A DNA stretch of 64,000 bases from Aptenodytes patagonicus (taxonomy: Eukaryota; Chordata; Aves; Sphenisciformes; Spheniscidae). This document shows, piece by piece, positions 6,181-54,624 of this stretch. The position numbers and the translations under genes were made by a program. The stretch spans positions 2,254,143 through 2,318,142 of the forward strand of contig NC_134974.1 of NCBI RefSeq assembly GCF_965638725.1. Reading direction: 5' to 3'. The notes under the pieces were generated by a model that saw nothing but the letters and a program-made list of their open reading frames with translations, ran no database searches and was not told where the DNA came from. The first letter of the stretch is position 1; every line of letters begins with the position of its first letter.

Positions 6181-6295
6181 CCGGCCCTTCCCGTAAGCGC
6201 TCGTTAATTAATGCCAAATCGCCGTGCGATTACAGGACACGGAAATCAAATGACTTCATCGTGATTAAGGTTTATTGCCGCCGGGGAGCGACAGG
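6181..6295. promoter_or_regulatory. Candidate enhancer-like AT island
   Basis: An AT-rich, CpG-poor island inside very GC-rich flanks carrying TTAATTAATG, GATTACA and ATCAAATGAC words (homeodomain and bZIP-like). The texture resembles vertebrate conserved non-coding elements. Conservation is inferred, not seen. Confidence 0.3.
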
Positions 6296-12740: not shown

Positions 12741-13672
12741 GGCTCGGACTTTTTTTGCTAGTTTTTTTCCCCAAAATGCAGGGCATGGGATGGGGTAGCG
12801 CTAATAAAGCTGGGGTTTACGGCTTTATAGCTCACCGTGTCTAGCGGCAGCCGAAGTTTTGCAGGCTGCGTGTTCCCCGCTCGCTCCCAGCTCCCTCCAC
12901 CGCTCCCAGCCTTTAACTTTTCCCTTTGCACTAGTCAACAGCATTTTCTGCAAATATTGAGGCAAGTTTGCCCATTCCTTGAAGGAAAAAAGCGGCGGGT
13001 TCTCCAGCCCGGCGTGCCTGCGCGGCTATCTCGGAAAAAAGCAGAAAAGATACTTGCAGATTAATACTATTAAGTAGGATTTAAAAAAAAAAAAAAAAAA
13101 TAAAAGCAATTGAGGTTGGATAATGCCCTCCAGAACAAACCAGCTCTATTCTCCAGCGCCTGGCAGGTCCTTGTGTGCCAGGGGGTATTTAGCATGTCTT
13201 TAACGAAGCTGAAAGCTTTGTGTTGAAATTGCACTTTCGGACTCTCCACGCTGTGCGCGCTCATTGCCACCTGAGGAACAAGCAGAGGTGCAAAACCCAC
13301 CGCAATTGGCTTCGCAGGCAACGCAGACGGCCACACAGGCTGCAAATCAGCGCAGCACAAGGACAAAACCCTTGAAAAAGAGCCTTCGGCCAGCGCAGAA
13401 CGGGCCCGGGTTTCGGGCGAGCTCCTCCGCGGCGCCCGGGTCTCTTACCCGGCTCAAATCCAGCATAAAGTCACCCGCCGCGACCTGCTCCCGGGTCTCC
13501 TCCGCCCGCAGGAATGGGGGACCTGGGGGGGGACAGAAAGGGGATGGAGGCGGATTTAGTGGATCCAATATGCTCACCGAGCAGACAAGGCGATTTTCCT
13601 AATAGGAACATGCTTGCTAAATTTTCAAGTATCTTTTAAAATGCCTCCACTTTCCCTCCAGTAAATAGCTGA

Positions 13673-13737
13673 GGCTTTTATAATTTGTTAGAAAAGCTTT
13701 TATAATTTGTTAGAAAAGCTGAGGCTTGTATAATTGC
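13673..13737 (+). repeat. Short tandem duplication GCTTTTATAATTTGTTAGAA
   Basis: Two adjacent near-identical copies of about 23 bases (starting near 13674 and 13697), followed by a degenerate third partial copy ending in GAGGCTTGTATAATTG. It is a local slippage duplication of an AT-rich block. Confidence 0.8.
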
Positions 13738-16120: not shown

Positions 16121-16123
16121 TCA

Positions 16124-16166
<43 letters not shown>

Positions 16167-16175
16167 ATTATTATC
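16124..16175. repeat. (ATT)n microsatellite
   Basis: About sixteen ATT triplets with one AATATT interruption near the 3' side. It is a plain trinucleotide microsatellite. Confidence 0.95.
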
Positions 16176-16179
16176 AGGG

Positions 16180-22100: not shown

Positions 22101-25100
22101 ATATCCCGGTTTGGTTTCTCCGTTCGAAGTTTCCCCTCCCTTGTCCAAACAAAGCGGGCGGGTGGGATGCCGAGAGGCCTCCGCTCTCGCCGAGCCCAGA
22201 TGGTACCGTCTGCTGTTCCAGAAGAATTCCCACCTGCCCGCCCTGCGTGTAACCGATTCCCTCGGTGGGTGTCTGCGCCTCCCCGCGCCGGGGGCTCGCT
22301 GCGGGGAAGCCTACGGCAGCAGATGGGGAGGATACCAAGCACCCGAGGCATGGCCAGGGCGGACCTTGGGAGGCTACACTAGGATATGGGTCTTATTTTT
22401 TAAACAACATTTTTTCCACTCCCTGGTTATCCCTCGTTACCAGGTAACAGAGGCCCGGAGCATAAATACTGGGCAGGGAAAAGAGCTGCAAAGCCTCCAT
22501 GCACCCCGGGAGCAAAAAACGGGCATCTAAAACCTTCCTCCTGCAGTAGCTGCTGATGTAAATCCCAGCTGGGATTTGAACCCAAGCTGGTATTTATTCT
22601 TTGTTTTCCTTTCTTCTATCCATTGGCCCCAAGGAAGATGTACTGTTACACTTAAAACAAGAGTCTGGCTGTAGATTTAAGCTGCCATAAGCAGCCGTGA
22701 TCCCTCCTTTTCTCCCCAGTTCCCTGGGTGAAGAGCAGTTCAGCGGCTGCCACGACCCACCCCAGCACTGGCTGCATGGTTCATGCAGCAGGAGAGCTCA
22801 CGTCGGGGTCAGAGCAGGAGAGGAGAGGGTCGGAGGGGGAAACCCTTTTCCCCCCCATCCCTAAACAACCCAAACTGGTCTAGAGGTGCAGTGCAGAAAT
22901 CGGGAGCGCTTCCCCCCGGGAGGGCCGTGGCGGTACCTGGAGGGGTTTGGTTAAGCCCTGCTGCTCCCTCTGCTCTCCTGGGCTCAGGTTGGCACGAGGC
23001 TCCGGGTGCGAAGGCATCGAGGGTGCTGCAGGTCTGCGAGGCTTCGCTCCCTACCATGAAGAGCAAGACCTGGAAAACAGCAGGAATTTGGCTTAGGAGG
23101 CAGGAGGCTTTTCTGAACGGGTTCCCAAAGGGGTTTGTGGGTGCTGGGGGCACTGAGGGACCCACTTTCAATCCCTGCCCTCCAGCCGTAACTGCCAGGG
23201 ATCCTAAAGGGACAGGCCACCCCTGGAAAAGCCCGATGTGGACATTTCCCCACCATTTCTCCTCCCTGCAGGAATGGGGGTTTGTGCAGCCGCTCTCTGC
23301 ACCCAAGCCCTTGCAGGTGGGCATTCGGGAACCCAGCCGGCGTGGCCTGGCGTTCGTCAACCCCTGGGGACACCGGCCACCTTTGGCCCGTGCCGTATTT
23401 GTGTTCAGGACTCAGCTTCCCCCTCCTGGGGCACAGCCACAAGAGACATGGCCGAAAAAGTATTCCCTGCAGGGATACATCCACGGGGAAAAGCACAGTG
23501 CTTTTCCCCAGGGACTCGCTCCACAGGGGTGCAGGTGGGGGGTTGCAGTATCACCCGAGGAAGGAAAACCAGGTAGCTCCAAGGAAGCCAGCTCCCGCAG
23601 CCCGTGCTGCACCCCACGAGTGACGTGTCCCCATACCACCGAGTAGAACCACCCAGCTAGGGTGGTCTGGGGGCTCCCACCTCCTCCTCGGGCTCCTCTG
23701 CCCTCCCCTTGCCACACACCATCTCCCTCTGCCCCCTCCGTTTGTTGTTCTTGGCTGGGGTTTAGCCTGTCTAAATTTAGGCGGATCTATTTCAACACCC
23801 ATCCTCTGCCCTGGGGGGGGAAGAGGACGGAGCAAAGGTAGCTGGGGAGGAAGAGCAGGGACCGCGGTGCCCTGCAGTGGGGTCCGCTCCCCGCACCCCC
23901 GGCCGGGCTTTCCGCACCAGCACCCTGGATTTTATCCGGCTGCGAGGCCATGGAGGTGCCCAGGACTGAGGTTGGCATTTTCCCAGCTGTCATCCCATGG
24001 ATCTCTCTGGCTGTCACCTGGGGTAGAGCTGGGTGACAAGGACAAGCCAGCCCGTCTGTCCACCAGGGAAGGAGCTCCCTGCGCTGGGAACCAGCTCGTC
24101 TCCGGAGGAGGCTGATGCAGGTGAGTGAGGCTGCAGCAAAGCAAGGGCAGGGACGAGGGTCCGAGGAGCAGGACATGGGCACTGGCACCCAGGGGTGCTC
24201 TAGGGTCCGGTCCCACGTGTAGGTGACCCCAAACAGGGAGGACTGGGGTGTCCGAGCCCCCCTCGCTGCCCTGCCTGGCACAGCCAAAAACCATCTATCT
24301 CCCCTCACAGGTGGCATCACCTTGGGCTTGCGGAGCATCTCTAACTGCTGCTACTGCCTTTCTCCTAATGCCATTGGGGTCAGGACGTCCCAAAGAAAGT
24401 CCTGCTGCCTGCAGGACCCACGGCAGGGCCTCTCCTTGCCCCGGCCAGAGCCACGCTTCTCCGCTACACATTAACCGGCTGTTTATCTGCCAAGCGTTGC
24501 GCCAGGTCCCCTCCATGTCACCACCTCCAGGGGATTTTGGGGGGTAGTGCTGAGGGGTCACTAGCTCCTGTGAGCCCCAAGAAAGGCGCTCAGCCTGGTC
24601 AAACAGGAGAGGGCGAGACATGACAGAGCAAGTGCCAGCCATCGGAGGAGGATCGGAGCGCACAGTCTGCTTGTTCCTCGCTCACCAGTACACACCAAAC
24701 AGGAGCCTAGTTCCCAGTTCCCAGCACCGGGGCTCGTGTCCCCGTGCCCCAGGGCTTCAGAGACCACTTTCACCCCTCTATCAGCTCAGCTTGTCCTCGC
24801 TGCCAAGAGCAGCTGGCAGCCAGAGCATCGCCAGCAGGTCTGAAGCATGTTTTTGCTCCAGACATCTGCCCCGTTAGCCATTAATCCAGCTGGCAGAGGA
24901 ACGCGGGGGGCCGCCAGCACTCAGCTACGTCACCGTGCCAGCCAGTACAACTAACGGCGGTTGTTTAACGGCTGTAGCCGTGACAAAGGGAGCTGAAAGG
25001 TGCTAGACGGAGCTGGTGGGACTGTGATTTCTCCTTTTTTTGAGAAAAAGGATGAGAATTCAGTCTCTCGTCCCCCCTGGTTGCAGCTTACACTTACTAG

Positions 25101-26090
25101 CAATCGCAGTGTCAGTAATATCAACTCCTTGGGCTGCCGAGGGTACCAGGCACAGACACATCACCGTTGAGCATCAGCCTCTGGCAACTGGCACCTCACA
25201 CAAGCTAAAGGGGAGAAAAAAAAAAAAAATACCGATTTCACATACAGCAGTGTCAAAAGGACCTTTGCAAAAGGCCCTTTGACTAACAAGTGACTAATAA
25301 CCGGCTGTTAAAATAAGCCACCAAGGACTCAAATCCCCAGCCCTGATGAAGCACAAGGGAAGTTAAATTTTCCCTGCGGCTGCACCTCCTCCTGCCGCAG
25401 CCCACTGCCTGGATGCATGCAGCTTCTTGCAGTCCCCTTCCAGCCAGCTCGAGCCCCCCCAGCACCCAGGGAGCAGCCAGAGCCAGCGCAAGCAAGGGGG
25501 AAAAGGTGGAACGTGGCTGAGAGCACGATTCCCAGTTTTGAGGGAACCTGGACGCAGGTTTTTGGTGGAGCAGGAGGTGCTGGTATCCCCCGGTGGTGCT
25601 GGCTGTGGACATCATGGCAGTCGCACTTATAATTTGGCTTTTCAACTCCTATCCCCTTGGATGCTGTGCTCCAAACCTTCGTTTTGGTGGGGACAGCAGC
25701 AGGCCAGAGGCAGCCCGTGCTGCACCCGACATGTAGGACAGTTTGGGTCCTCTCCGCACTCATCGGCTGCTCGCAGCCCTGCTGTGAAGTCTCTTCGAGC
25801 CCCTGGAGCTCACCGATCCTCTCCAAGGGCAGCTGGAAGCTTTAAATTTTTGACACACTGAGCTACACAGCACAGCTGCCTCGGGGTGGAAGATGAGAGC
25901 CGCAGTGATTGAAAACGGTTAAAAAAACCAAACCCTCTGGGATTTTGCTCAAAAGCTTGCCTCCCCCCGAGAGGCAGCAGTGCAGCCAAGCCCTGCAGGG
26001 CCACGTTTGGCAGCTGCCTGGATGCTGGCAGCTCCGTACCTGCAGCAGCTCACATTTGCTGGCACCTCTCAGATCCCACCTCCACTTTGC
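16180..26090. other. Intergenic upstream of HJV
   Basis: No confident gene. A CACG/CACAC-rich stretch at about 17715-17960 resembles the alternating tract at 3005-3290 on the opposite strand. Copies of the dispersed motif GGGGAAACTGAGGC lie at 18962-18979 and 19481-19498. From 19 to 26 kb the sequence is unique, moderately GC-rich and free of exon-like frames with family similarity. Untranslated first exon(s) of HJV may lie here but cannot be placed. Confidence 0.4.
19481..19498 (+). repeat. Dispersed motif GGGGAAACTGAGGCACGG (representative copy)
   Basis: The window holds about ten copies. Plus strand: 3753-3770, 5044-5060, 18962-18979, 19481-19498, 43478-43494 and 51666-51683. Minus strand: 5925-5941, 10493-10510, 43953-43970 and 44610-44622 (cut by the gap). 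Most match over 16-18 bases while their flanks do not align by eye. From memory the word matches the core of the MIR/CORE-SINE family (GTGCCTCAGTTTCC), so ancient SINE remnants are the first explanation. Confidence 0.7.
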
Positions 26091-26096
26091 TTCTAG

Positions 26097-26164
26097 GGGA
26101 CCTGCTGAATGAAGCAGAGACAAGCCAGAGGGTGAGCAACCCCCCAGGCTCTGCATGGATTGGA
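26097..26164 (+). other. HJV: Probable HJV 5' UTR part of the first coding exon
   Basis: A good acceptor (TTGCTTCTAG, ending 26096) precedes the HJV start codon by 68 bases, so the first coding exon probably begins at 26097 with 5' UTR. The upstream non-coding exon and promoter were not found. This is inferred from the splice signal only. Confidence 0.4.
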
Positions 26165-29057
26165 ATGGGGAAACCTGCCTGCAGTAAGAGCCCAGGGCAG
26201 CAGGAAAACCCCAGCTTCTTCCTTCGAGCTCTCTTCCTCCTCCTCTTCTGCAGGCATGGTAAGGATCTGCATGGGCAGAGCCGTATCCCTGGCAAGGATA
26301 CCCATGGGAGCTGCAGCCCCAGGGTGCAGGGAGGGTACAACCACGGCAGAGCTCCTGGGAGGTGCCTGGAGCAAGCAGAAGATCCTCTCGTCGCAGCCGT
26401 AAGGCTCAGGCAGTATCAGCGTGCCCTTGGCCCGCCACAGCCAGAGGGAAGGGCAGGCAGCATTCCCACCAGCATCGCCTGCCCTTACCAGGGTAGCCTC
26501 AGCAAGGAGAGCATCCCCCTGCTCTCCTGCAGCAGGCTGTTTCCCTTGGGAGAACCCTTAAAAGCTCTATTATCTCCCAAGATAAGACAGGGACAGCAGG
26601 GCACAGGGACCAGCCAAATTCCAAGGTCTTCCAGCGAAAGGCACCGGCCGCATCCATCACTCAGTCCCTCGCTTTCCTCCCTGCAACCCAGACAATCTAC
26701 TAGGAGGGCTGAGCCCCACATCCTGCAAAACCTAAATTCACACACACCCCCAGCAACACCCAGCCCATCCCTTATAACCCCTCTGCTTAATGAGCTAAAT
26801 GATCCCCGCTGGGGCCAGTTCCTTAGCTCTCCTGGAGCTGTGGCACATGGCACTGCCTTCCGTAGCACGGAGGAATCACATTTGAGGGGCAGGATGTCCT
26901 TGGTGCGGTCAAGCCTAGCACGAAAAAACGATTGCACGGCCCGGCCAAGGTTGAAATGGGAAGAAGGGGTTTCGCAGCTCAGGAGTTCCCGTTTGTCCCC
27001 GGCAAGCCCTGGGGCGAAGAATCTCCGTCTGAGCCACCTCCCAGGGCCACAGTCACAACTGCTGCCCTGGTTCTCGGCAGTGCTCGTGCCTGAGGTACAA
27101 TCTCACATCCCAGTTGCTTCAGGACCCCCCTTCGGCCCCGTGACGGCCCTCCGCGCCGGGCTCCAGCCTGTTTCTGCAGCAGGCAACCCTGGATTCGTTC
27201 CCCTCAGGCACGTAAGCAGCAGGTCATTTAAACTGGCCGCTGCGTTCATTAATATAGGGAGAGAAGTGCTTCCAAAAAGCGTCTCCATCATGAGATCTGG
27301 AGTGGGCCAGATGGTGGGAGGTGGTGGGAGGAGAAGGGGCTGCCCTTCCCCACTCCTACAGCTCTACTGGGATGCCTCGGGCCGTCCCGTCTCTCCCAGT
27401 TTCTTCCCAGTGCAAGATCCTGCGCTGCAACTCGGAGTACGTGGCTGCCACCCTCAACCTGCGCGGCTCCAACAGGAACGCGGCGTACTGCAACGCCCTC
27501 CGCTCCTACTCCCACTGCACCCGCAAGACGGCTCGCACATGCCGGGGCGACCTGGCCTACCACTCCGCCGTCCACGGCATCGAGGACCTCATGATCCAGA
27601 ACAACTGCTCCAAGGAGGGTCCCACATCGCCGCCCCGACCCCGGCCCCCGGCCCCCAACCATCAGGGCTTCGAGTCTCTCGATATCTGCAACTACGAGAA
27701 GAGTTTTCTCTACAAGCACGGCCAGCCCCCCAGCTACCAGCACTGCGCGGCTTTCGGGGACCCCCATATCCGCACTTTCCATGATGACTTCCACACTTGC
27801 CGAGTGGAGGGCTCCTGGCCTCTCTTGGACAATGACTACTTGTTTGTGCAAGCAACCAGCTCTCCGGTGGCGAAGGGGTCCAACGCTACGGTCACTAGCA
27901 AGGTAACGCTCGCGCATAGGGCTTGGCAGCAAACCCACGCACCTCCGGGATGCAGCGATGGCCTAGGGCACTCCCTACGCTCCCTAAAATGGCCGGGGAG
28001 GGCAGCAACAGCTTCAGCTAAACCCACATGGGATCAGGAATTAACGTCTGCAGGAACAAGTGGGATGAAGGTCCTTGAGGGGAACAGAGAGACCTGCAAA
28101 CGCTCCTGGGGGATGGGTTACTGCGTGGTCCGTAGGTTACCTGCATGCAGTCTATCCGGGCTTGGCCCCGTCTCAGTTTTCAGTTGCTTAAACGGTATTA
28201 AAGAAAGGAGGAAACAAAGGGAGGAAAGAAGGAAACATTGCTGTCTTCCCCGAAGGACTGCAGCAATGTGGGAGAGATGGTTTGGGGCAGAGGGGGATGG
28301 ATCGGTGAGGCAGACGTGCGCAGTCTGCTTTGCCCTCCCCTAGAGAGCTGATACCTGGGGTGGGGGAACACGGCCGCCACTCTCACACCCGGCAAGTCAG
28401 ATCAAACCCCCTCTGATCTGCTCTCTGCAGCTCACCATCATCTTCAAGAACATGAAGGAATGCATCGACCAGAAGGTCTACCAGGCTGAGATAGACAGCC
28501 TCCCGGCAGCCTTCGAGGACGGCTCGGTGAACGGGGGCGAGAGGCCGGGCGGGAGCAGCTTGGCTATCCGGGAGCGCAGCCCTGGGCGGCACGTGGAGAT
28601 CCGTGCGGAGTACATCGGCACCACCATCGCCGTCCGTCAGGCCGGCCGCCAGCTCTCCTTCTCCATCCGGGCAGCCGAGGAGGTGGCGCGCGCCTTCACG
28701 GAGGAGCAAGACCTGCAGCTTTGCGTGGGCGGCTGCCCCCGCAGCCAGCGCATCTCCCGCAGCGAGTGCTGCCGCGGCCGCGTGGCGGCAGAGACGGCTC
28801 GGGCGCTCTGCAAGGAGATGCTGCCCGTGGAGGACGTCTACTTCCAGTCGTGCGTCTTCGATGTGGTGACCTCGGGGGATGCCAACTTCACCATGGCGGC
28901 TCACGGCGCCCTGGAGGATGCCAGGGTCTTCCTTCCCAACGCTGAGAAACTGCACATCTTCCAGGCTGGGGCAGGCTGCCCGCGCATCTCTTCTTCCTTC
29001 CTCCTCCTCCTCCTCCTCCTCACCTCTGGTCTTCGGGTTGTTTTGTTGCACTTTTAA
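26165..29057 (+). CDS. HJV: Hemojuvelin (RGMc), BMP co-receptor
   Basis: Coding exons 26165-26258, 27400-27902 and 28431-29057 have GT/AG borders and phases 1 and 0. They sum to 1224 bases, or 407 residues (human about 426). Exon 1 gives a signal peptide (MGKPAC..., hydrophobic [14 protein letters not shown]), and the splice joins it to [11 protein letters not shown]. The middle exon carries RGD ([12 protein letters not shown]) and the [10 protein letters not shown] site where RGM proteins self-cleave at Asp-Pro. The last exon begins LTIIFKNM, has CVGGCP, and ends in a Leu-rich tail ([14 protein letters not shown]) fit for a GPI anchor. The family role is BMP co-receptor at the cell surface, driving hepatic iron sensing in mammals. 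FVQATSSP and the TXNIP neighbour favour HJV over RGMA/RGMB. The mammalian furin site RNRR is replaced by ECCRGR. No frame breaks are seen. Confidence 0.93.
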
Positions 29058-29181
29058 CTCTCGCTGGCATTGCATACAGCAGAGGGGACACATCCAGCCA
29101 GTCCAAGAGAACTGCTGACTCAAGACCCATGCCGTGCGGATCAAGAGGGATGCCTTACCTGGGATCACGTCTCTCTGCGGC

Positions 29182-29187
29182 AATAAA
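29182..29187 (+). terminator. HJV: Polyadenylation signal AATAAA, HJV
   Basis: AATAAA 125 bases after the HJV stop codon gives a short 3' UTR. A second AATAAA at 30173-30178 could serve a longer form. Confidence 0.6.
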
Positions 29188-29209
29188 GAATCGGAGACCC
29201 AGACCTTTG

Positions 29210-31585
29210 GAGAGGGGAGCACTGGAGCTGAAAGGCGGTGAGACGCTGGCTTGCATCCGCTGTTCTTGCACGTACGGCACCGGTTGAACCTGGTTCCTCT
29301 CCCGAAGGCAGATCACGGGTTTTTCTGTTGGATTGTGATGCAATTTTTTTTTTCTAAAGATGAGGACGTTGCAGCCCTATCAAAGAAAAAGAAACACACG
29401 GGGTGAAGACATGTTTAGAAAACCTCTCTGCCCCTCAAAGCCTTTCCATAAACTTGCTTCACACCTTTCTTCCAGTGTCACTACAGCAGAGTTTTACTCA
29501 GGAACCCTACAGATTCAGAAATAATGGGCCCAAAGCCCAGACCCCAATTTTTAGAAGTCAAAAATGTTGTCTGGTGGATTTGGGGCCCCTTCACCCAGCT
29601 GCTACCAAAGCAATGCGAGAGTGAAGCAAGGCAGTAAGTTGGTTATCGGAGTGCCGTGACGAAGGTTTGAGATTTTTGAGCTAGAAATCACCCATTTGAT
29701 ACTGTGTTCTCCTCGCTCTGGATTAGTAACGTGCTAATTTCCAGCGTCGGGAGCTGCAGAGCGTCAGGTCTCTGGCATTTCAGGCTACCGTTGCTATTTT
29801 TCCTTGTTGTCTTGGCACCTGTCTAGGACTCAATATAGCCAGTTCTGGACTTTGGACCAGCGTTGAGTTTCAGTGAGGAAAAATACCCCTTGGCATTCCC
29901 CTCCCTTGGGCCCAACTTTCTCCGTCGCTGCCACAACCCTGTTCAAATCCAACCCAGACTGTGGGTTTGACGTGCAAAAGAGAGTTAGTAATGGAGACGC
30001 GGAGCTGGCAAAAAGCCATGCGGCTGTATCGATGGGCAGGGGAACGACTAGCAGATGTACATACATCGAGAGGTGAGGCCAAATTAGATGTTTAATATAT
30101 TTAAGAGGTTTTAAGTAAAGCAGATAGAGTATATGATAAGAAATATTTTCCATATGCAAAGACTTTTTTTTTAATAAAGAGGGCTCACATTAAAAACTTT
30201 GCCGTTCCTGTCCCGTGGAGCCGTAAGAAGAGCCTTGCAAAGCCCTAGCCTTGTGGAGGCAAAGAATTAAGCTGGCAGACGCGGGCAGGATTTGGGCATG
30301 CCGCTCGGGGAAGGAATACTGCAGACCATCCAGGTACGGAGGATCTGTCAAGCTGTAAAGGGAGGTTTTACAATTCACGTTTCAGTATATCTGCAGTCTC
30401 TTTGGTCAGGTTTGGGTTTTTTTTTTCCCTCTGGTTCTTCTGCCGAGGGCACAAAGAGTAAATACAGAAATGTTTCTTCGATATCTCAGCATATTTCCTC
30501 CTCCGATACGCGCTCAAAGCACACGGTGACTAGCGTGAGAGTTTCTCTGTTTCTTGCATGGTGCTCTCGCTAATCCCAGAAGGTTTTGACATTAAAGGTG
30601 TCTATTTTTGAAGTCCTCATTTCCTGTCATCTGTCTCTTTATTTCGTTGGTCGGCAGCAGCAGGTGAAGATAATAATATCTCGCCTTCCACCCACTGCTC
30701 CTTTTACTCTGGAGCATTTTGTGGTCTATATATACGTGCACTGAATGAGGAGAGGAAGCCAGCCTGCCTCGCTGCTACGCTCCACCACTTTGCAGGAGCC
30801 TGCAGGTCCCCGTGGGAGCAACGTTCCCCGCAGGGATAAAATCCTCAGGAGCCCTTAAGAGGCTGCAGGGTTGATAGTGCTGGAGCTCCTTATAGAAACA
30901 GGATTGGCTTGATCCAGTAATAAAAGGTAGCCACCTCCAGGGCGCGAAACAGCAGCTCTTCAACAGCACCCAGCAATGCTACGCAACAGCCAGAAACAGT
31001 GGCACGGACACGCTGCAGGGACAGATTTTATGATGCAGAATATAATTATCCTTTAGATTTTGGCCAACGGAGCCAATCAACAAGAATGCCATGGGGAAAG
31101 CAGGGCTTTCCTCATGGAGAGATGAGGATCTCGCTGGCTGATGACCCTTGCAGGTGAGCGGGTCCACACTGGCCCCCCAGATCCAGCCTCTCGGTACCTC
31201 CGCGGTCATAAAATGGGGACAGAAGAGTCCCCAGGACCCGCCATCAATGTGAAGGCGGTGGAGGTGATCCTGCGCGAGCCCTGGGCACGTGGGCATGGCA
31301 GGGAAGTGGCGCAGCAGAGCCTGGCCCACCACGTGTCTCGTAGCATCACGCTAGCTCCGTCCCCACCGAGGAGCGTGGCGAGTGCTAACCCAGAGCTTTC
31401 CAGGAGGGTTGTTACACAGACTCACTCTTCCCAACCTGCTCGGGAACTTCCCACCCGGGAAGGGGGCAACGAGTGGGGCTCCACGGGCTTTGCTCCCACT
31501 GAAAAGAAGAGCAGAGTTTCCTGGATCTACCTGTGAAAGGCGGATTCAAGACCCCTCACACATCATCCACCTGACAAACCCCAAA
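29210..31585. other. Intergenic / possible long HJV 3' UTR
   Basis: AT-richer unique sequence without open frames of known family. If the AATAAA at 30173 is used, the first kilobase would be HJV 3' UTR. A TATATATA-like word occurs at 30727-30734. Nothing else is recognised. Confidence 0.35.
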
Positions 31586-31590
31586 GCCCG

Positions 31591-31720
31591 TGAGAATCGT
31601 GGAGTATCTCAAGTTGGAAGGGACCCATAAGGACCATCAAGTCCAACTCCCTGCTCCTCGCAGGACTACCTAAAACTAAACCATATGACTAAGAGCGTCG
31701 TCCAGATGCTCCTTGAAGAG
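31591..31720 (-). mobile_element. CR1 LINE 3' fragment (minus orientation)
   Basis: The sequence reads like the reverse complement of a CR1 3' end: GAATCGTGGAGTATCTCAAG, GTTGGAAGGGACCCATAAGG, then GTCCAACTCCCTGCTCC. About 130 bases are recognisable before similarity fades. It is a short, 5'-truncated, old copy that encodes nothing. Confidence 0.8.
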
Positions 31721-32100
31721 AGGACTTTGGCCAGCACTCTCTGGAAGAGGTGAGCCAGACCGCCCCGAGCAGCTCGCGGAGGTCCGAAGCTCTGGTTCTG
31801 GTTGGAGCAGGTATCGGGGAGTCACAGCACGTCAACAAGGCCACCACCTCCCTCACACGCGATGCAGATGCTTAAACGTGAGCTGCAGCCTGGCGGGGGT
31901 CCAGCAACGCAGAAGGAGCGTGCACAGCGTTGAATGGGTTTGCGCCTGTTCTCCAAATTGTTCTGTACTCTGCATCCTCAACTTAATGATTGCAGAGGAA
32001 GCAAGACCTTTCAAAGGCGTGCTAAAGTCTCTAAGTAGAAAAGAGACCTTTCCACCCCTGACAGATTGCAGTCTGAAATAAAGAAGTGGAACGTAGGCGT

Positions 32101-32161
32101 GGATCCAAGCCCCACTGATGTCAACAAGAGTATTTCCATTGACGTCAGTAGACTTTGGATC
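32101..32161. repeat. Imperfect 60-bp inverted repeat
   Basis: Arms GGATCCAAGCCCCACTGATG and the facing GTCAGTAGACTTTGGATC (reverse complement GATCCAAAGTCTACTGAC) pair imperfectly around a short loop near 32125-32137. This GATCAAGCCC / CATTGACGTCAGT type of sequence resembles old dispersed sauropsid repeats, but I cannot name the family. It could also form a hairpin. Confidence 0.55.
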
Positions 32162-32169
32162 AAGCCCTT

Positions 32170-35100
32170 AAATTTCCTAGCATATGTCACCTGCTAAAAA
32201 AGACACCGGCGACACCGGCCAGCATTTTCAAAAGCGAGCCCAGTTTGGGCCGTTCTGCATCCAGACGCCCAACCTGGGCGGTTGGAGCAAGGGAATTCCC
32301 AGTCTGGATCAGACCTGGGGTTCGCCTGCCCTGGTAGGCGGTTGTCAACAGCAGCCAGCACCGGGTCTCGCAGGAAGGTGTGAGAAGTCTGGGACAATCC
32401 GCTCCTCTTACAGCCCGTCTCGCTCTGATCTCTAGTAGTTAGAGAAATGCCAAGGCCTTGGGGCATGAGGTGTAGTAGCCAAACCTGAACCTTCATTAGC
32501 AGCTGCTTCTACGTGTCATAAACCAGCCTGATCATCAGAGGTGGCCACGTTTGCCAGCTCCCGGTGTTGCGGTGAGGGCACGCAGCTGTGTAAGTTGGAG
32601 CTGCCAAGCCTCTAACCTGCAAACCAGAGCCGTCCGAATCAGAAGCAGGTCTCCAAAACGGCAGCGCCGGTTTAAGAGCCGCCCAAACGTGCAGCTCTCC
32701 TCGGCGTGTTTCCTGCCAAATCCCGGCATGTTTTGTTAGCAAGATGTTAAGGCCAAGGCGAGAACTTCCTCCACCAAGTTCAGGGTTAGATTCGGCTTCC
32801 TCACGTTCGCAAGGGCCAACGCCTTCAGCAGCATCACCAGCAGGGAACGTGGCTGAAACGGGCACGTCTTGGTGCGGAATGCTTCCTCACGTTCCTCCTC
32901 ATCTGGCATGAAAAATAACCTCAAACCACAGAAAAAAGAAATAAATAAATAAGCTGCCAGCGGGCATTTGGGCAGCAGGTGGAGAGAAGCCAGATCTCAG
33001 GAGGTCCAACCTCCCCGTTGTCCTCGTGAAGTGGCAAATGCCACGGTTGTCAGCCTCTTACAGCCGTTCCTCCTTCTTCTTCTTGTAAATACACGAAGTA
33101 AAGATTAACGCTCATTCTCACTTCTACAAATACACAAGCAGCACGCTCAAAACGCGAGAAATTGGCCCAAAACGCGAGAAATCGGCCCACAACAGCCAAA
33201 TTTAAACGCAGCTCCACTTGCCCCCTCTTAAACTTTGTAGCTAGGACTGGGCAGGCCAAATACACCCGTACCATTAGCCTGTCGCGTGTGTAAGCCGAAC
33301 AACCAGCCCGCGTGGGTGGATGGAGGAAAACCACTGCCGTGTCGTTCCCGGCAAGGCCTCTAGATGTCTGCACAACCCAAAGTATGAGAAGGACTTCGGA
33401 GGAGTCGGCAGCTCCGCAGGCCAGGAGATGTCCATCCTCACCCCAAACACCGCGAAATGCCCCCCGGTAAAGGTTTCACCGTTTGGCCTCGTCGCCTGCG
33501 AGATCAGCGAAGGTGAAGGAGGTCTAGGAGGGGATTGACACCCCCCCCCCCCCAATTTTAGCCACCCAACCTGGTTCTCTCAATTCGGGATCTTGATGTT
33601 TGGGGTGGGCATCTCCGGCGAGGATCCCCTTGCCCCCAGGCACACCCACCCACACGCCGGCAGCCTCAGAGTAGCTCTGGTTTGCTGAAAAGTAAGAAAT
33701 CTTCCGTATTTCTTTGCTCTCTCCAGCATCTGCGGCCCCGGCTGGGGCCTTTCAAGGGACAATTGGATGGAGCAGGGAGGGAAGCTCAGGAAATCTTTTG
33801 CTTTGTGATACTTTCTCCTCCCTTCACAACAACGTATTTCAAACCCAGCTGACACCAAAGGCAAAGAGGACCTAGTTTGGCAAAGAGATGAGCTGGATTT
33901 GTTCTTTCAGAAGAGGGAAGCTCGGCCAACGGAGCCGAGAGCAGCAGGTTCAGCTGGCCCTGCTGCGTGCCGGGAGCCCAGGAGAGGTCACACTCTCCCA
34001 GCCGGAGGAAAGAGCTGCTGAGTCTTCCTGCCCAGAGCAGATGACAGACACGGGACTTCCCAAACCCTGAATTCAAATTCCTCCTTGCTTATGGATGACT
34101 GAGTTGAGTCTCTTGTCACAGGCTGTTGACACTTAGCTCCGGCTTTCCCCTTCCTCTGTTGCAAAAAGACAATCTGGCGGCCAGAAAAGCAGTGAAGAAA
34201 TCCCACCGCGGCAAAGAACCATCTGTCAGGGAGAGCTTTCGCATTGCGCTCCTTGGCAGGAGCTGGAGAGCTGGGGCTCTGGGGGAAAAGCCCTCACGCC
34301 CGAGCCCCGAGAGGACTTCTCTCCGTTCAGCGGGGATGGGGAAGGGGAAAAGGGGATCCCGATCTGTGCCACGAAGCATTTCAAAACGGTATGCAGCCCG
34401 CACAACGCTACGAAGCACAGGCAGCGGCGACACAAGCCATCGCTGTGGACGAAAGCAGCAAAAAAAGCTGCTTTTCGAAACCCCTACCGGGGATCCGCCC
34501 TGAGAGCTTTCCAACCTGTTTCTGGTAGATCCCTGGAAACACCTCTGTATTCCAGCACCCCGGCGGTGCTGTGCCCCCCCCTGCCACAAGCCAGGCACCA
34601 CAAACCTTAACAACCTCGCCAAAACTGTGGCTTTTATTCAGAAACTAAAACGGAGACACTCCCCTTGCTTCCCTGCCTGCTTTCAAACCTAGAAATCTTT
34701 TGCAGTTGAATCACGGCCGTGGCCACAGCCAAAGGTGAGGGGTGAGAAGCCGAGGACAGGCGGTGGCTTTCCAGGAGCCACCCAAGTCCCACAGTCCCTC
34801 GTTTTCCAGCTGCAGCGCCACGCACCCGATGCAATCAGCGTGGGATTTATTTATTATGTTCCCTGTACACAAACAACCTCGCCAAAGGAAATGCCTTCTC
34901 CGCCCCGGCTCCCGCTCTTGACCACACAACAGGCACACTCCGTCCCTTCGCTCGGGCCATTGTGAATCCCTTCACGTCCTTCTCTTCCCCCCCTGCCTGC
35001 CTCAAATTTGCTGGAAGCAACCATATATGGTGAAAAAAAGGAAGAAAACGGCACCGAGAAGCTCCAGGGCTGCAGCATCCGGCAGGCACCCGCCAGATCT

Positions 35101-37920
35101 CCCAGCGGTTCAGGGGTGGCAGCCGGTTGTCTGATAGACGGGGCAAAGGATAACCTGCCACGAGAGGAGCGTGGCTTCTCCAGGCAACGATGGGTAGCGG
35201 CTCCCGATAACCTAGACCAGGGAAAAAAAAAGGCTTTTATAAGCATCGGGATTTTATTACAAGCGGGATTCAGATAGATGGTGGGAACACGGGTAGTTTC
35301 CAGCAAGGCACGACGCGGCTGGCACGGAGCGCGGCGCTCAAGGCTCTTGCGCTGGCCAGTTTCTGTTTTACCTAATTCCTTCTCCATGACCCACGCAGCA
35401 GCCCCGGCTTTCTGTGAGTCACCTCAGGGCCTGGTTTGTTGCTCAGCCCAACCCTGCAGCTTTTGAACCGGGTTATCCCCAGCGTATAAGGTTAGTCATG
35501 CAGCTCTCCTCGCCGTCCCTCGCCACCGGCCAGGCACAGCGGGAGAGGGCAAGGCTGCGGCCACTCTCCCCATCCACCCTCAGCAGTAGCTTTGCTCTCA
35601 GTCAAGGTTGGAGGGATCCTCCGAGCACCACGATGCCAGTGGGAAATGAGCCGAGAGGGGGGGGCGAATGCCTTAACGCAATCGTTTAGCGGGAGCGAGG
35701 AAGCCCCCAAGAGCTGGTCTCTGCCCAGAAATCCAAGCGGCTTCTCTTCTGATGCCCTTGATTTTTTTGAAGGAGACGTGACATTTTGAAGCTTTTGTTT
35801 TTACAAGCGTTTCCGAAACCCTTGCTTGATCCGGGGTGCTGCTTGCGTGGGAAACCCTGTGAACCAAGTCTCAGCCCCGAGGAAATTACAGCTGCTCCTT
35901 CTCCTGCAGAAGGATCGGGGAGGCATTTCCAGCCGGATAGGGGTCAGGGGAACAAAGGGCAAAAGCTGGCTGAGAGATAAGGAGAAATCTGGAGAGGATT
36001 GGGGCCGTGGAACGTGCCTTGGACCATATCTTTGGCCAGCTCTTTGGCTCAGGACTCGATCGTCCTTTGACATTGCTGGAATGTGTTTTACCATCCAAGA
36101 GCGAGCAGCCGTGGGCTGGACACATCTTCCTTGGAAAGATGGGCACCGAAGGAAACCGGAGAGGGAGAGCGTAAACACGGCTCCTAAGGGAATGCTGGGC
36201 GCAGATCCAAGCTGGGGTCTTTGGGATCAAATATCCCGTAGCTGGCAAGGCTGGAAGGAGAGCTCTCCTCATTTTGCCAAATTAGAACAAATCCGCAATC
36301 CTTCGTTAATCCGGCACCTTTTTTCCTAGTGTGCCACAAGAAACAATGGGGCGAGCTTGCCGGGACCAGAGGCGGCAGGAAAAGGTGCAGTTCCTCCATT
36401 ATGTACCCAATTGTGAAATAATTCTCTCACAGCAAGGAAATTTGTCCTGCAGTTTGGCAGGCGAACAGTTTATGCCCTCCAGTTTATCTGGCCGGTTTAT
36501 CGGTTTATACTAACAGGTGTGAATTGACTCCGGGGGAAGGAGAGGATGGCAGAGAAAGAAAAGCACGGTGCGTGCCAGAAACACACAGACAAACAAGCTC
36601 CAAAGGACAACGGAGACAACTCCTAACAAAAACACATCTCTCTTCCTCATTCGGGGTGGGGACGCCTTGGGAGCCCCCGTTTTCCGTTCCTGCTTTGTTG
36701 GGTGGCTCCAGAAATATTGTTTTCCCATTTCCTCCACTCCCCATGTTTTCCTGAACGGTAAAAGCATTAACAGCTTTTAAAACCAAGGGCAAAATAGCCC
36801 CCGCCTGTCAGGGGGGGAATGTATGCTCAGCAAAAATGACCTAGGAAGGAAAATTCGAGGGTTTCTCCGAGTCGAAAGACTCCTGCTACGGGGACAACAC
36901 AACAGTCCCCGCTCCCCAAATCTGGGCTGGAAAAGAGGGACGAGGGCCCTGCCCCGGGCACAGTTTATAGGAAGGATGTGGTTGTTTGTCCTCCCTTAGA
37001 TCAAGATAGTCTTGCTGACGAAAAAAAGTTGCCTGTTTTCTGCGGCGAAGAGCAAGAACCATCTAGACATTGTGATCTTAAAAATAAACATTTGCCTCAG
37101 ATTTTCTCACCGGCTAACTTTCTGTGTGGGTGTCGTGTCCGTCCCCGTCCCCCCCCCCCCAAGACACTGGCTCGAAGGATCCCGAAGCGCGGGGGAGCGG
37201 GAGGGGGTGTCGCGCTTCCCTTTTAGCGATATGACGGCGCGCTGAGAGGGCTATTTCTGGGAAGGACGTGTGGGAAGGGTCCCCGAAACCCGGAGGGTGA
37301 GGAGGGGGCGCGGGTCCCCCATCGGGGGGTCGTGAGGGGGCTGCGGAAAGCCCCCCCCCCCCCCCCCATGACACCCCAGAAGGACGGAGAGAAGCCCACA
37401 GGGTCGGGCTTCGATCCCCTACCCTAAATCCGTCTTTTTTTTTTTACCTCAAATGATGTGGCGGGGGGGACAGGGGGCTGAGGAAACGCCTCAGGCACCG
37501 GCTGAGGGAAGGCCGGGGGGGGGGGGGGGGGGGGGCTGTGGAAATGCCCCCAGGCTGCCCTGGGCGGGGGGACTGAGGAAGGGGGAAGAAAGCCCCCCGA
37601 AGCGGGGGGGGTGTGGGGGGTGCGAGGGGAGCACCGGCGGTCCCGTCAAGCCGCTCCCAGTCCGCCCAGTACGGCGGGGCCCGGCCCGGCCCAGCAGACC
37701 CTAACCCGGGCACGGCACCCGCCCCGAGGGGGCTCTCCCCCTCCCTCCTGCCTGAGAACATTACATCCCCTTCGCCGCTCGCCATCGGCCGCCGCCGCCG
37801 CCCGCCCTCGCTCCCCATTGGCCTGCCGCGCTGTCACTCCGTCCCCCTCACCCTCCCCGTCCCCCCCCCCCCCCTCCTCTCCCTTGAACACGCTCGCCTC
37901 TCCTTCACACGCTGTCCACG
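32170..37920. other. Intergenic between HJV and TXNIP
   Basis: Unique, moderate-GC sequence with no exon of recognised family. A CTT-rich patch lies at 33069-33085 and a direct repeat AAAACGCGAGAAATYGGCCC is found twice at about 33151-33189. CpG content rises from 37100 towards the TXNIP promoter, with poly-C at 37150-37160 and 37349-37367 and poly-G at 37517-37534. Confidence 0.4.
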
Positions 37921-37939
37921 CTCCGCACCCGGCGCGCCG

Positions 37940-38088
37940 ATTGGTCGGCCGGGCTGTAAACAAGGTGGCGGCGGCCAATGGGGGCGCTGATCACGCGAGC
38001 AGCACGCCTGGCCACGCGCCCTCGGCGTGGCGCTGCTGGCATCAACAAGCGCGGGCGGGGGGAGGGCGGGGAGGCGGAGGCTATAAAA
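37940..38088 (+). promoter_or_regulatory. TXNIP: TXNIP core promoter with CCAAT, FOXO, ChoRE-like and TATA elements
   Basis: In order: an inverted CCAAT box ATTGGTCGG (37940-37948), a FOXO-type site GTAAACA (37956-37962), a direct CCAAT box (37975-37979), an E-box pair CACGCG-N5-CACGCC (37992-38008), a second E-box-like palindrome CACGCG/GCGTGG (38013-38030), and TATAAAA (38082-38088). From memory the human TXNIP promoter has the same order: ATTGGTCGG, GTAAACAAGG, CCAATGGG, a 5-bp-spaced ChoRE, then TATA. The ChoRE pair is where MondoA/ChREBP-Mlx bind in response to glucose. Transcription should start near 38110, giving a 5' UTR of about 270 bases. Confidence 0.85.
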
Positions 38089-38380
38089 GGGGGAGGCCGG
38101 CGGGGTCTCTCTCACAGCGTTGAGGGCAGCGAGCGGTGCCGGCCGGCCGTAGAGCGGAGCAGCCTTGCCTAACCCCCCCCCACCTCCTTCAGCTCTAGGA
38201 AGCGGAGGGTCGGATTGCTCCTTTTAACTACAATCGGGCTGTTTCAGGGTTTGGTTTTTTTTTTTTTTCTCTTCGGGGAAAAAAAAAAACGAACCCGCGC
38301 GGTTCCTGCCCTCCGCAGCCGCCCCCCCCCGCCCCCCCGCGCTGCTTTCTCAAGAGCGTTCCCCCGCGCTAGCCTCAGCC

Positions 38381-41300
38381 ATGGTGATGTTCAAGAAGGT
38401 GAAGACCTTCCTGATGGCCTTCAGCGAGCCTGAGAAGGTCTACTGCAGCGGGGAGAAGGTGGCCGGGCGCGTGTTGGTGGAGGTGGCCGAGGTCACTCGC
38501 GTCAGCGCCGTCAGGTTGCTGGCCTGCGGGGTGGCCAAAGTCAACTGGGCCAAGGGCCCCCAGCAGTGCCGGCAGGAGATGGAGTACCTGCGCTTCGAGG
38601 ACGTCCTCGCCCTGGAGGAGCAGCCCACGGGTGAGGATCTGGGGCTGGGAGGAGGGAGTTGGGGGGCAGAAGGTGGTGGGGAGGAAGGGCTTGAAGGCCG
38701 TCCGTTGACCAGCGGCTCTTCCTGCCGGCTGGACCCTTCGGGAGTCTCCGGTTGCGTCCCCTTGGGGCAGGCGTTGACTGGGTTGGTTCTACGGTGAGCA
38801 GTAGCGGTGTTTCGCTGGTGTCAGGGCTCGGCACCGAGACGGAAGTGGGACTGGACGTTGACCGAGTCTTGGGAGAAATAGGCAAATTCATGGAAACCTG
38901 GGGCAGAGGATGGCAGGGCTCGGCTAAGTCAAGTTCAAAGTTTGAAAGCCGAGGGCCGCTGAGCCCTAACCAGAGCCTGAAACAAAAGCTGGACGAGCTA
39001 CCCGCCGGAGCGTGCAGAAGCCGTTGGGTGTTGATGTGGCTGGCAGAGCAGGCAGCAATGCTGTATGTCCGCAGGGAGCGAGTACCGGAGTCGGCCTTGG
39101 CTGGGCGGCAGGAGGGTGCCGCTCGATCGGCACGGTGCACGGACAGGTGGTGGTCAGGGAGTGGCAAGCGCAGATCTCACCCGAGGCAAGGAGTCTCTTC
39201 TGGGCACGGAGAACTCCCTTCAGCAGCCTCCTAGTTAGGCTGGCTCCAGGGAAGGCGAGAGATAGGGACTTGGCAAAGCGTCCTGGGAGGTAACCGGGGT
39301 GACGTGAGTCTTGGAGATGGAGAGATAGCTGGGGAAAGAAGCGGGTGCTCGATAACTCCCACAAAGTGGAAGTAGGGTGTGGTGAGGAGAGGTAACAGGG
39401 ACCGAAGCGCAGCGGGACACAGTGTTCTGCCTTCAGATGGGGGTGTTGAAAGGAGAAGTGAGAGTAAACGAGCGGCGCTTCCCTGCTTCGAGAAGACGCC
39501 GGGTTCTCAGGCTGCTCTTGGGGGACAGGTGTAGGCGGCTCTTCCCAAACAGCTAACGCAGCTCAAGCCTGCGCAGCGCTTGTCTTGATCGCTGCCTGTG
39601 CAAGCAGAACAGAGGATAATGCTTAGGAACAAACCCCTGGAGCTTCAGCTGACGTTTCCCTTCCCCTTTTCTTTTCCCAGATGGGGACGGATCTGTAATC
39701 TTGAGACCCGGGGAACAAATACGAGTACAAATTCGGATTCGAGCTTCCCAGGGGTGAGTGTGAGAGGAACGCTGCCTCTTAAATTGAATTGGATTGCTAC
39801 GGGAAATTCTCCTGTTGCCTCGGTTGTGTCTGACAAGCGTCTCTTTCCCAGGCCTCTGGGTACCACCTTCAAGGGAAAGTACGGCTGCGTGGATTATTGG
39901 GTGAAGGCCTTCCTGGAGCGCCCGTCCTTTCCCACTCAGGAGATAAAGAAGCGCTTCGAGGTTATGGATCCTGTTGATGTGAACACTCCAGAATTGCTGG
40001 TAAGCGCCGCTTTACTACGAAAGCTTTGGGTGTCAACAGGCGTCACGAGAGAGAAAAGCCCTTGGGTAGGGTCAGTCCAACCTCCATCATTGAGATGCCC
40101 CTAATAGGCTTTATCGTTGAGCGTGGATTAAATGCTTAGTTCTTAAGAAGTCATAGTTACTCGTAGAAATCTACACCGAGACCGGTAAAATGAGGCGCTT
40201 GTTCTGCTTTCACTCCGCTGCGAGACACTCGAGCCTCACAGGGAGCTCGAAGCTCGCGTTGCAGAACGAGAGGAAGGAAGGAAGGAGGAGCGGGATGGGA
40301 GCGGCCCGGCGGGTTTCACCCGGGTAACAATCTCGTTTCTCTGCAGTCCCCGGTTGCTGCCAAGAAGGAGAAGAAGGTGTCCTGTATGTTCATTCCTGAT
40401 GGACGCGTGTCGGTCAGCGCTCAAATCGACAGGAAAGGCTTTTGTGAAGGTAAGAGCCTGCCCTCCGCTGCGGGAGGGAGGGGGGAAGGGGGGCGGGGGG
40501 GGGGGGGTGTTAATCAGCTAAAAGGGGCTTCCCGCAAGGAAAAAGTGCGGACCGTCCTAAAGGCCCAGGCGTGGTTCCCTCCCCAGGTGACGAGATCTGC
40601 ATCAACGCCGACTTCGAGAACACTTGCTCCCGCATTGTGGTGCCCAAAGCGGCCATCATCGCCAAGCACACCTACCTGGCCAACGGGCAGACCAAGGTCT
40701 TCACCCAAAAAACTCTCCTGCGTCCGAGGCAACCACATCATCTCGGGCATGTCCGAGTCCTGGCGGGGCAAAACCATCCGCGTCAAGAAGCTCAAACCGT
40801 CCATCTTGGGCTGCAACATCCTGCGCGTGGAGTATTTCCTGCAGGTGAGTGGCTTGGATTGCCGTTCCTCTTCCTCGCTTGGCCAGCGTACCGGCAGACT
40901 TTGTCCCCCTCTTGGTTCCCGACATCCCTTAAAGCTCCGGTTCTTGCCCTCGCAGATCTACGTCAGCGTCCCGGCTCCAAGAAGATCATCTTGGAGCTGC
41001 CCCTTGTCATCGGCAGCCGCTGGGGCATCGGCAGCCGCAGCTCCAGCATGGCCAGTCAGACCAGCTCCGAAATGAGCTGGGTGGACTTGAACCTCCCCGA
41101 TGCTCCGGAAGGTGAGTGGAGCGAAGGGGTCCTTGGCAGGCACCGCTGTGACACCCCCTGCCCCCCCCCCCAAGTTTGGGAGGGGGCTAAGAGGGGTTCC
41201 GGTGGGGTGTTGCGGGGGAGCACGGGCGATGGCGGAGAGCTCACCGGTCCCTCCGTCCCTCGCAGCACCCCCGTGCTACCTGGACATCGTTCCCGAAGAC

Positions 41301-41609
41301 CACCGCCTGGAGAGCCCCACCACTCCCCTCCTGGAGGATCCCGAAAGCTTTGACAGCCCCATCTTCATGTACGCTCCGGAGTTCAAGTTCATGCCACCAC
41401 CCACCTACACGGAGGTGAGAAGCGCTGCCGGCGCGGCTGGCTGCGGGAAGGCTTAACCCCTGGGTGAGGGCGGCAGGACAGAGGAGGCAGCTCGGGCAGA
41501 AACGTTCCGGTGGGGTTTAGCCTTGGGACGAAGGCTCCGAGCGTCTCAACGGCCTCTCGGCTTCCTCCCTCAGGTGGACCCCTGCATCGCTAACAACAAC
41601 ATGCAGTGA
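38381..41609 (+). CDS. TXNIP: Thioredoxin-interacting protein, alpha-arrestin
   Basis: Eight exons: 38381-38630, 39681-39753, 39852-39999, 40347-40449, 40587-40844, 40956-41111, 41266-41414, 41574-41609. Total 1173 bases, 390 codons plus stop (human 391). The family adaptor restrains glucose uptake and binds thioredoxin and ITCH-type ligases. Seen: start MVMFKKVKTF, arrestin N and C domains, Cys at the human C63 position (QQCRQ), and PPxY motifs PPCY and PPTY. Relative to the family the assembly has +G then -C in exon 2, so NKYEYKFGFELP is read in another frame. It also has +A in exon 5 and -G in exon 6, which shifts the stretch from LSCVRGNH to IYVSV. The pairs cancel, phases match the introns, and no stop is created. 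Short homopolymers suggest consensus errors. Human C247 is Ser here. Confidence 0.93.
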
Positions 41610-43050
41610 GCGCCGAGGAAAAAGTTACTCTCCCGCTTTTTCCGGACTCTTAATCCGCCGTGATGGACGCCTTGCGAGCAGCGCCCGGGCCTCGGGTCTA
41701 GGAGCCCTGCTGCAGGGAGGAGCGGCCGCTCGAAGGGCAACCCCGGCTCTGCTCGGCGAGCGTGGAAGAGGCGATGAGGTGTACGAGTCTTTTGCGTTCC
41801 CTCGCGTGCTGGCTGTACCGAGAAACCCTGCTGCGGCTCAGGGGTGGGTTTGGACCTCGCTCACAGCCAGTGTCTTCCAAAAAAAAAAAAAAAAAACCCA
41901 AAACCCCAAACTACCAAGGTGCTTACGTGGAAACCGCCAGGAGAATCTTGAGGTGGAGCAGGGGCGGTGTAAAGGCCTCGCCCGCCTCCTTTACAAACCC
42001 TGAGGGGAGGCAGATTCCAGCCTAAAAAGACTTTAAAAAAAAAAAAAAAAGACAGTTATGTCAAGAAACGGCCGTCGTGATGCCTTCAACCCGAAAACAC
42101 CCGTCCTGGGGGACGGGCGCGACCTGTTTGTTCGGTTCGGTGTCGAGAGCGCGCGTGCGGGGACTGTAACTAACCCCCTTCCTCCGACGGCGGGGTTGGC
42201 GTCGCTCTCGCCCCAAACGCCCTTTTCATTCGGAGCTGCCCGGCGGCGGGCCGTCCTGCCGCTGCTCCGGCGCTCCCTCTCTCCCCTCGCCCGAGGGCGA
42301 CGTGGAGACGGAGAGCGATGAGCAGCGGCTCCGTCCAGCCCCCCGGGAAAGAGCCGACCCCCCTCGGAGGAGCTTTGGCTAGGCCGAGGAGCACTGCCCC
42401 CCGTGCCAAGCCCGCTCTCCTTTGCTTGCCGGAATTCCGCTTGGAAGCTCGCCTCCGAGCCGGTTTGCGTTCCGCGGTTCGATCTCGCCGTGTTAATTCT
42501 CTCGGCTGGTGGAAGCCCGCGCTCCCGTGGGACGGGGAGAACGGCTGGAGCGCCCTGCGTGCTCTTGCTTTCCGTCACTAACCGCTGCTCCAGCCTCCCC
42601 CGGTCGCCGCTTCCCGGTTCCCGCCGGCCTTGGGTGGGGACCGCAGGGGCCGATGAGGATCCCGTGGGACGCCGGAGCCAGCGTTTTCCCCCCTGTGCTG
42701 GCAGAATTCCTCACCCGTTTCCCCCCCCCCCCCGCTGTCCGTCCTGACCCAAGCTGGCGCCGAACCCAGCCTTGCCGGCGGAACCGAACCCCATCCCGGC
42801 TTGGGGGGGGGCCTGGCTCTTCCCCAGTTCGCCTGAAGAGAGGGAAGCTCTTAAATCCCAGCGGCTGCCTCCGGCTGTTCCGGACACAAATCGAGACCAG
42901 CAATAGCTCCTTTTCTACTGTTTTGTATCCGGGTTTTGGGAAGGGGGGTGGGGGGTGGGGTGGGGAGAAAAAACCAGTGTCGTTCTTGGTGCTGCCGGTG
43001 TGCCGTAGGCCCCCGGAGGGGCCGTGGTTAATAAAAGAGGGAAACGAGAT
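41610..43050 (+). other. TXNIP: TXNIP 3' UTR
   Basis: About 1.4 kb from the stop codon to the AATAAA at 43030-43035 agrees with the usual length of TXNIP 3' UTRs. It includes poly-A runs at 41879-41895 and 42035-42050 and a poly-C run at 42721-42733. No other gene is seen. Confidence 0.6.
43030..43035 (+). terminator. TXNIP: Polyadenylation signal AATAAA, TXNIP
   Basis: First clear AATAAA downstream of the TXNIP stop codon (GGTTAATAAAAGAGG). Confidence 0.55.
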
Positions 43051-43054
43051 GGTT

Positions 43055-44622
43055 GTGGAGCCTCTTGGACTTGAGCTTGGGTGGGGGGGTGGAGGGTGGC
43101 CCAGTCCCAAATGGCGTCACCCTGCTGGGGGGGGGAGGGGTCTGCTTGTCCCCTTCCGCCGGCAGAAGCTGGGTGCGACGGCAGCACCCGCCTTCGGGCG
43201 CCGGCGCTCCTTGACCGGGACTGCAGCCGATTTGCCCAGAGCGGGGCAGCGCCTCTGCTCTGCGGCGCGGGGGGAACCCCGAAACCCACGCCGTGCTCTC
43301 CAGGCTTCGGAGGAGGGGGGGTTTCCCCCCGTTTTTTGGGACCTGGCCGGCAAAACACCTGCAGCCTGGCGCGAGCCGAGCTTTGCCGAGCCTTTTTTTC
43401 CCCTGACTAGCCCGCGGCATCCCCGGGAGCTGGCCGAGGTGGGAGCAGACATCCCGCGTCCCGGCTGACGGCTGGGAGGGGAAACTGAGGCACGCTGAGC
43501 GGGGCCCGGGGTAGGAAACTCCTGCCGGCCCCCGAGCCGCACGCGGGCGGCACCCGTGTCTTCCTCGGTCTCCGTCACTGCCGGAGGCCGGCGTAGCAGC
43601 GTCCCCCCTCCTCCGTAGCCCTTTTTTGGGGGATGTAGGTGAAAGTTAACGGAAAAAGGGCCGGGGCACCAGCAGCGCCGGTGCCCGCCGGCCGTATTGA
43701 GGAACTGAGCGAGGAAAACAGCCGCAAGCTCGGCAGCGGGCTCCGGTCCCTCACCCCTCCCCGACTTGGCAGCCGCCCCGGTTGCCCGTCGCCCGGTGGC
43801 TCGCTCCCGGTGAGGCCCCCACCGAAGCTTGACCCAACGCCCCGGGAGCCCGGGGGGGGGATATGGGGCCGGCCCCGGAACACCGAAGCAGCGGCGGGGG
43901 CTCCCATTCCTCTCCGGTCACCCCTGCGACGCCGCACCCGTACGCAAATCCACCGTGCCTCAGTTTCCCCATCCTGCCAGAGCCGCTGACGCCTCGTCCA
44001 ACCTCGCCGGGAGCCCCTTTCTCCCCCCGTTCCCCCCCTGCCTGCCCTTATCTCCCCGCTGCCGGTGCAGCGCGGCACCAGTTCGGCACGTAGGGGCCTT
44101 ATCGCCGGGAAGCCGGCTGTTCCAGCCGTGCCAGGCCAGCGCGGTTCGTCCAGCCGCACGCCTCGGCCCCGGCGAGCCCGACCCCGACCCCGCGGAGCGA
44201 GTGGAGTCCCTGTCCCCCGTCCGAGCCCTGCCCCGTCCGGTGACGCCGGCGAAGGGACGCGATGCCGCCGCGGCGGGTTTAGCCCCGCTCTCATCCGTTT
44301 ATTCCAACCACCACGTTTCCCACCCTGCCCTTATCCCAGCTCCGTCCCGGGAAAGTCACCGCGTTCCCAGCCCGGTGCCGCGAGGGGCTCCCGGGAATGT
44401 GTCCGTGTCGTGTCGTGTGTCCCCGTCCCCCCCCGCCCCATGACGCTGCGGACACCACGGCTCGGCCCGGCGATCCTCCGTCCCTCCCCTCGGAGCGGCC
44501 CACCCCAGACGCTCCCATGGGTGCGAAGCTCATGGGGGGACACCCCCCCACCCCCCCCACACCGCACCCGTGGGGAAACCCTCCGGGCACCGGTTGCTCC
44601 GGCTCCCCTCCGTGCCTCAGTT
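43055..44622. other. Intergenic GC-rich spacer
   Basis: No gene. Three copies of the dispersed 17-base motif lie here (43478, 43953, 44610), a local cluster. The segment ends at the scaffold gap. Confidence 0.4.
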
Positions 44623-54220: not shown

Positions 54221-54224
54221 GACC

Positions 54225-54620: not shown

Positions 54621-54624
54621 GGCT

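Follow-up and report, generated by a model that had tools for sequence, protein, structure and literature searches.

The frame-shifted stretches of the thioredoxin-interacting protein gene (TXNIP) in the analyzed DNA are almost certainly not a real feature, and nothing biologically new is shown by them. We have hardly any doubt that an ordinary TXNIP was misread in one contig, through uncorrected homopolymer errors in positions 38000-44610 of the window, before an assembly gap. The window, that is, the whole stretch of 64,000 nucleotides that was analyzed, comprises positions 2254143-2318142 of contig C26 in a genome of 1.35 Gb and 618 contigs. The evidence for error is that a second copy of the gene, on contig C318, has the normal run lengths and encodes a normal protein, and that the single-base differences between the two contigs are concentrated beside the gap. 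With C318 normal at all four places at issue and the burst of indels ending at the gap, consensus errors are, as the initial annotation had judged, likelier than a rewritten protein.

In the window, TXNIP was spliced from eight coding exons, ATG to stop (Table 1). GT/AG boundaries were found at 7/7 introns, and the frame encoded 390 residues with no internal stop; the human protein has 391 residues. Human thioredoxin-interacting protein was the top solved-structure match of the gene product. Compared with C318, the TXNIP coding sequence showed four 1-bp length differences, which form two cancelling pairs. The extra G and missing C that had been proposed for exon 2 were both seen at the named homopolymers in the alignment, as were the extra A of exon 5 and the lacking G of exon 6. 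The view that the pairs cancel without a stop over 390 residues also held, the spliced frame being open from end to end with all introns GT/AG.

Table 1. Coordinates of the features in the window, with strand where assigned and the basis or content of each entry.
Feature	Position in window	Strand	Basis or content
Match to C318, one piece	4458..44610		99.0% identity; match stops where C318 ends
RGM-domain gene, presumably hemojuvelin-like	27294-29057		Pfam
Error-rich tract	38000..44610		37 single-base indels versus C318 in 6.6 kb; 33 in runs of 2-6 bases
TXNIP gene	38381..41609	+	8 coding exons, ATG to stop; spliced translation, structure match, Pfam
TXNIP coding exons 1-4	38381-38630, 39681-39753, 39852-39999, 40347-40449	+	Spliced from window
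TXNIP coding exons 5-8	40587-40844, 40956-41111, 41266-41414, 41574-41609	+	Spliced from window
Exon 2, first cancelling pair	39681..39753	+	+1 G at ~39710, -1 C at ~39746; alignment with C318
Exon 5, opens second rewritten stretch	40587..40844	+	+1 A at ~40707; 258 bp in window versus 257 bp in C318
Exon 6, closes second rewritten stretch	40956..41111	+	-1 G at ~40972; 156 bp in window versus 157 bp in C318
Assembly gap, 100 N	44623-44722		Just past the error-rich tract
Ankyrin-repeat ORF	51752-53173		Pfam
7tm_1 receptor, at least 2 pieces	56683-58376		Pfam
RRM exon	61001-61768		Pfam

Between in-frame flanks, the window protein was rewritten at residues 95-106 (12 residues) and 234-282 (49 residues). 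The first shifted stretch was present and flanked as the initial annotation described, but it spans 12 residues and not 13, and the second, put earlier at about 50 residues, measured 49. At position 41022, the window has G where C318 has C, so that residue 300 is Trp in the window but Ser in both C318 and the human protein. This substitution is probably one more of the errors in the tract, but it could be a real polymorphism. The C/T difference between the window and C318 at position 39957 left the residue unchanged.

The gene search of the genome returned two matches among the best candidates scored, namely, the window itself and C318, at 99% identity. C318 is 45,834 bp long, and in the alignment it had the other length at 4/4 places, that is, it was without all four differences. 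When its exons were lifted over by alignment with nothing altered, an ordinary TXNIP of 390 residues was obtained, which carries the family motifs NKYEYKFGFELP and LSCVRGNHIISG...IYVSVPGSKK. This protein matched the N-terminal TXNIP chain 4gfx with 251 bits (residues 7-154), a longer TXNIP chain with 560 bits, and the ARRDC3 chain 4r7x with 108.2 bits (residues 17-166); among relatives with solved structures it is, by these sequence comparisons, closer to TXNIP than to ARRDC proteins. Like the human TXNIP/alpha-arrestin family (PDB 4ll1, 4ll4), the C318 copy has an Arrestin_N domain, an Arrestin_C domain, and 8 coding exons. An excerpt of PMC5501109 gives human ARRDC2-4 and TXNIP 8 exons, and the count of coding exons found here agrees with it.

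Over the whole match, the repeat-rich start included, 180 of the 239 substitutions were transitions, as two haplotypes would show. C318 is most likely the other haplotype retained as a separate contig, that is, a false duplication. This apparent second haplotype of 45.8 kb terminates close to the same gap as the error tract of the window, and because its end is also close to the gap, it could hold errors of its own. At the coding indels, judged from the sequence, the wrong contig is the window in 4/4 cases; outside coding DNA, we cannot say whether it is the window or C318.

The fit of the two proteins to human TXNIP was then compared by counting identities against the solved human structure PDB 4ll4, the human chains matching residues 3-317 only. 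Over these residues, C318 was identical at 249/315 positions and the window at 204/315. Three Cys residues of C318, at 170, 205, and 267, align with Ser in the human chain used; we take these Ser residues to be engineered changes, and therefore, the true identity of C318 may be three higher. In the first rewritten segment (95-106), 0/12 window residues agreed with the human protein versus 12/12 in C318, and in the second (234-282), the counts were 5/49 and 37/49, respectively. The phmmer score against human TXNIP was 560 bits for C318 and 423.8 bits for the window. For C318, Pfam assigned Arrestin_N with 80.2 bits (profile 3-148/148) and Arrestin_C with 78 bits (2-134/137), whereas the window scored 58.8 bits (3-148/148) and 36 bits (2-63/137). 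The Arrestin_C match covered residues 175-298 of the C318 protein versus 175-232 of the window protein. Both proteins nevertheless cleared the Pfam cut-offs for both arrestin domains, which for the window protein is a point against the reading as error.

The length differences in TXNIP belong to a burst of indels that lies against the assembly gap, only 12 bases separating the gap from the end of the C318 match at 44610. In the megablast alignment, which another alignment departs from in placing a few indels near 38268-38293 differently, the window and C318 differed by 4 single-base indels in the 30 kb from 6 to 36 kb and by 37 in 38.0-44.6 kb. The corresponding substitutions numbered 96 and 35. 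The repeat-rich segment 4458-5999 (100 substitutions, 24 one-base indels, and 5 longer ones) was omitted from these counts. Substitution density in the burst was 5.3 per kb versus 3.2 outside, and the rise in indels was far larger; since substitutions were also denser there, part of the difference in the burst may be real divergence. A Fisher test of indels versus substitutions, comparing 6-37.3 kb with 38-44.6 kb, gave P = 9e-14. Positions 37300-37999 were also omitted from this test; they contain three one-base indels, and two of these lie in runs of 17-18 bases. Longer indels (>1 base) numbered 4 in 6-36 kb and 7 in 38-44.6 kb; the latter include a 4-base indel in a TXNIP intron.

The affected runs in the burst were short, 30 of 37 being of 2-5 bases, and natural length polymorphism is uncommon in such short runs. 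Within the TXNIP span, 10 single-base indels were found, 4 in 1173 coding bases and 6 in 2056 intron bases, indicating that the coding sequence was not spared and that no selection against frameshifts is seen. The bins at 26-30 kb, which hold the RGM-domain gene that we take to be hemojuvelin-like, had zero single-base indels between the window and C318. The GC content was 0.60-0.67 to the left of the gap and 0.71-0.77 at 46-58 kb.

We propose that uncorrected homopolymer errors of the kind typical of raw long reads persisted in the final ~6.6 kb up to the gap, and that four of these errors landed in TXNIP exons and cancelled pairwise, which would yield an open but false frame. The cause may have been poor coverage and/or failed polishing at the contig end in GC-rich DNA, and polishing reads that mapped to the duplicate contig C318 instead may have contributed. 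A narrower form of this explanation holds that the errors persist because the polishing reads went to C318, and not because coverage was low at the contig end. Such attraction of reads is documented for one case in the legend of Extended Data Fig. 11a of PMC8081667, and C318 does exist as a separate contig with an intact TXNIP frame. However, the overlap extends over 40 kb, all of which would be expected to suffer, and only the 6.6 kb by the gap were hit. A contig-end effect is therefore favored over read attraction alone, which we regard as possible but rather unlikely.

An open frame is not what four random errors usually leave behind, and its likelihood under the consensus-error explanation was assessed by simulation. 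When four random 1-bp indels were placed in runs of >=3 bases of the C318 coding sequence, the frame was restored in 37% of 100,000 sets and a full-length open frame was obtained in 5.4%. With runs of >=2 included, the frame was open in 4.0% of 30,000 sets. A probability of only 4-5% for an open frame counts against the reading as error; at the same time, the simulation indicates that errors can yield the pattern without special pleading. The cancellation without a stop was modest luck, and the finding was selected for looking odd.

The open frame and intact splice sites would also fit a window haplotype that truly carries four compensating 1-bp indels, and thus a TXNIP with two rewritten segments in the arrestin fold, the normal allele lying on C318. 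The substitution rate, which suggests that each contig is a real haplotype, is in line with this as well. However, the burst to which the indels belong extends through introns and flanks as far as the assembly gap, it is improbable that one allele gained four independent indels while the other stayed untouched, and the second segment wrecks most of the Arrestin_C match. We consider such an allele extremely improbable. A diverged, functional paralogue on C318 paired with a decaying pseudogene in the window would account for the two copies in the assembly, but this is scarcely credible, given 40 kb of colinearity at 99.0% identity that includes the hemojuvelin-like gene, substitutions that are mostly transitions, few indels in 6-37 kb, and the fact that decay would neither spare 30 kb from indels and cluster single-base indels by an N gap nor preserve every splice site and the open frame. 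For these reasons, we rejected a real rewritten allele as well as a natural pseudogene and a paralogue pair.

Errors of the kind proposed here have parallels in other assemblies. PMC8081667 reports that, in its CLR contigs before polishing, consensus errors were most often short indels, and that these gave rise to frameshifts. The same paper describes a primary locus of TLK1 that was left unpolished, with false frameshifts, as reads were drawn to the alternate copy. TLK1 in Anna's hummingbird (PMC8081667, Extended Data Fig. 11a) likewise combines false frameshifts in the primary contig with a better alternate copy; unlike in that case, as the legend presents it, the affected DNA here is confined to the 6.6 kb next to the gap, the shifts cancel, and the frame stays open. 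For older assemblies of zebra finch and hummingbird, PMC9516821 reports a correlation of false indels with GC content, and in the cases described there, short false indels likewise led to false frameshifts in GC-rich coding DNA. That study compares older with newer assemblies, whereas our comparison is between two contigs of the same assembly. With regard to birds, part of the text of PMC5470226 lists TXNIP among the chicken proteins once assumed lost, with expression supported by mass spectrometry, and places the chicken genes earlier assumed lost in clusters within GC-rich, poorly covered regions.

The normal-frame copy on C318 was further compared with human TXNIP at the cysteines. At the position of human Cys247, C318 has Ser (TCC) and thus no Cys; the same bases are present in the window at 40749-40754 (exon 5), out of frame. 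Cys63 and Cys190 are kept in C318, and a Cys is found at 236, where the human protein has Ser. As far as the excerpts of PMC10852281 and PMC7464905 go, Cys247 of human TXNIP bonds thioredoxin, and the former reports that human C247S blocks this bond while control of glucose uptake is retained. The gene may encode a TXNIP that is naturally C247S, or Ser may simply be the non-mammalian state; a literature search on Cys247 outside mammals found nothing that settles the state of the residue. The assignment as TXNIP rests on the remaining sequence and not on Cys247.

The domains of the neighboring genes were assigned by Pfam (Table 1). We take the ankyrin-repeat ORF to be ANKRD34A-like, and, by eye, the 7tm_1 receptor to be GnRH-receptor-like and the RRM exon to be RBM8A-like. 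The gene order presumably resembles that of human 1q21. Long ORFs on both strands, with a short repeated unit, were observed at 53800-56100, and this segment resembles a GC-rich tandem repeat and not a gene.

These results carry a warning, namely, that a full-length open frame does not prove a gene model correct, since paired homopolymer errors by a gap can yield a plausible false protein that passes checks for stops and length. For TXNIP, the better source in this assembly is the C318 copy.
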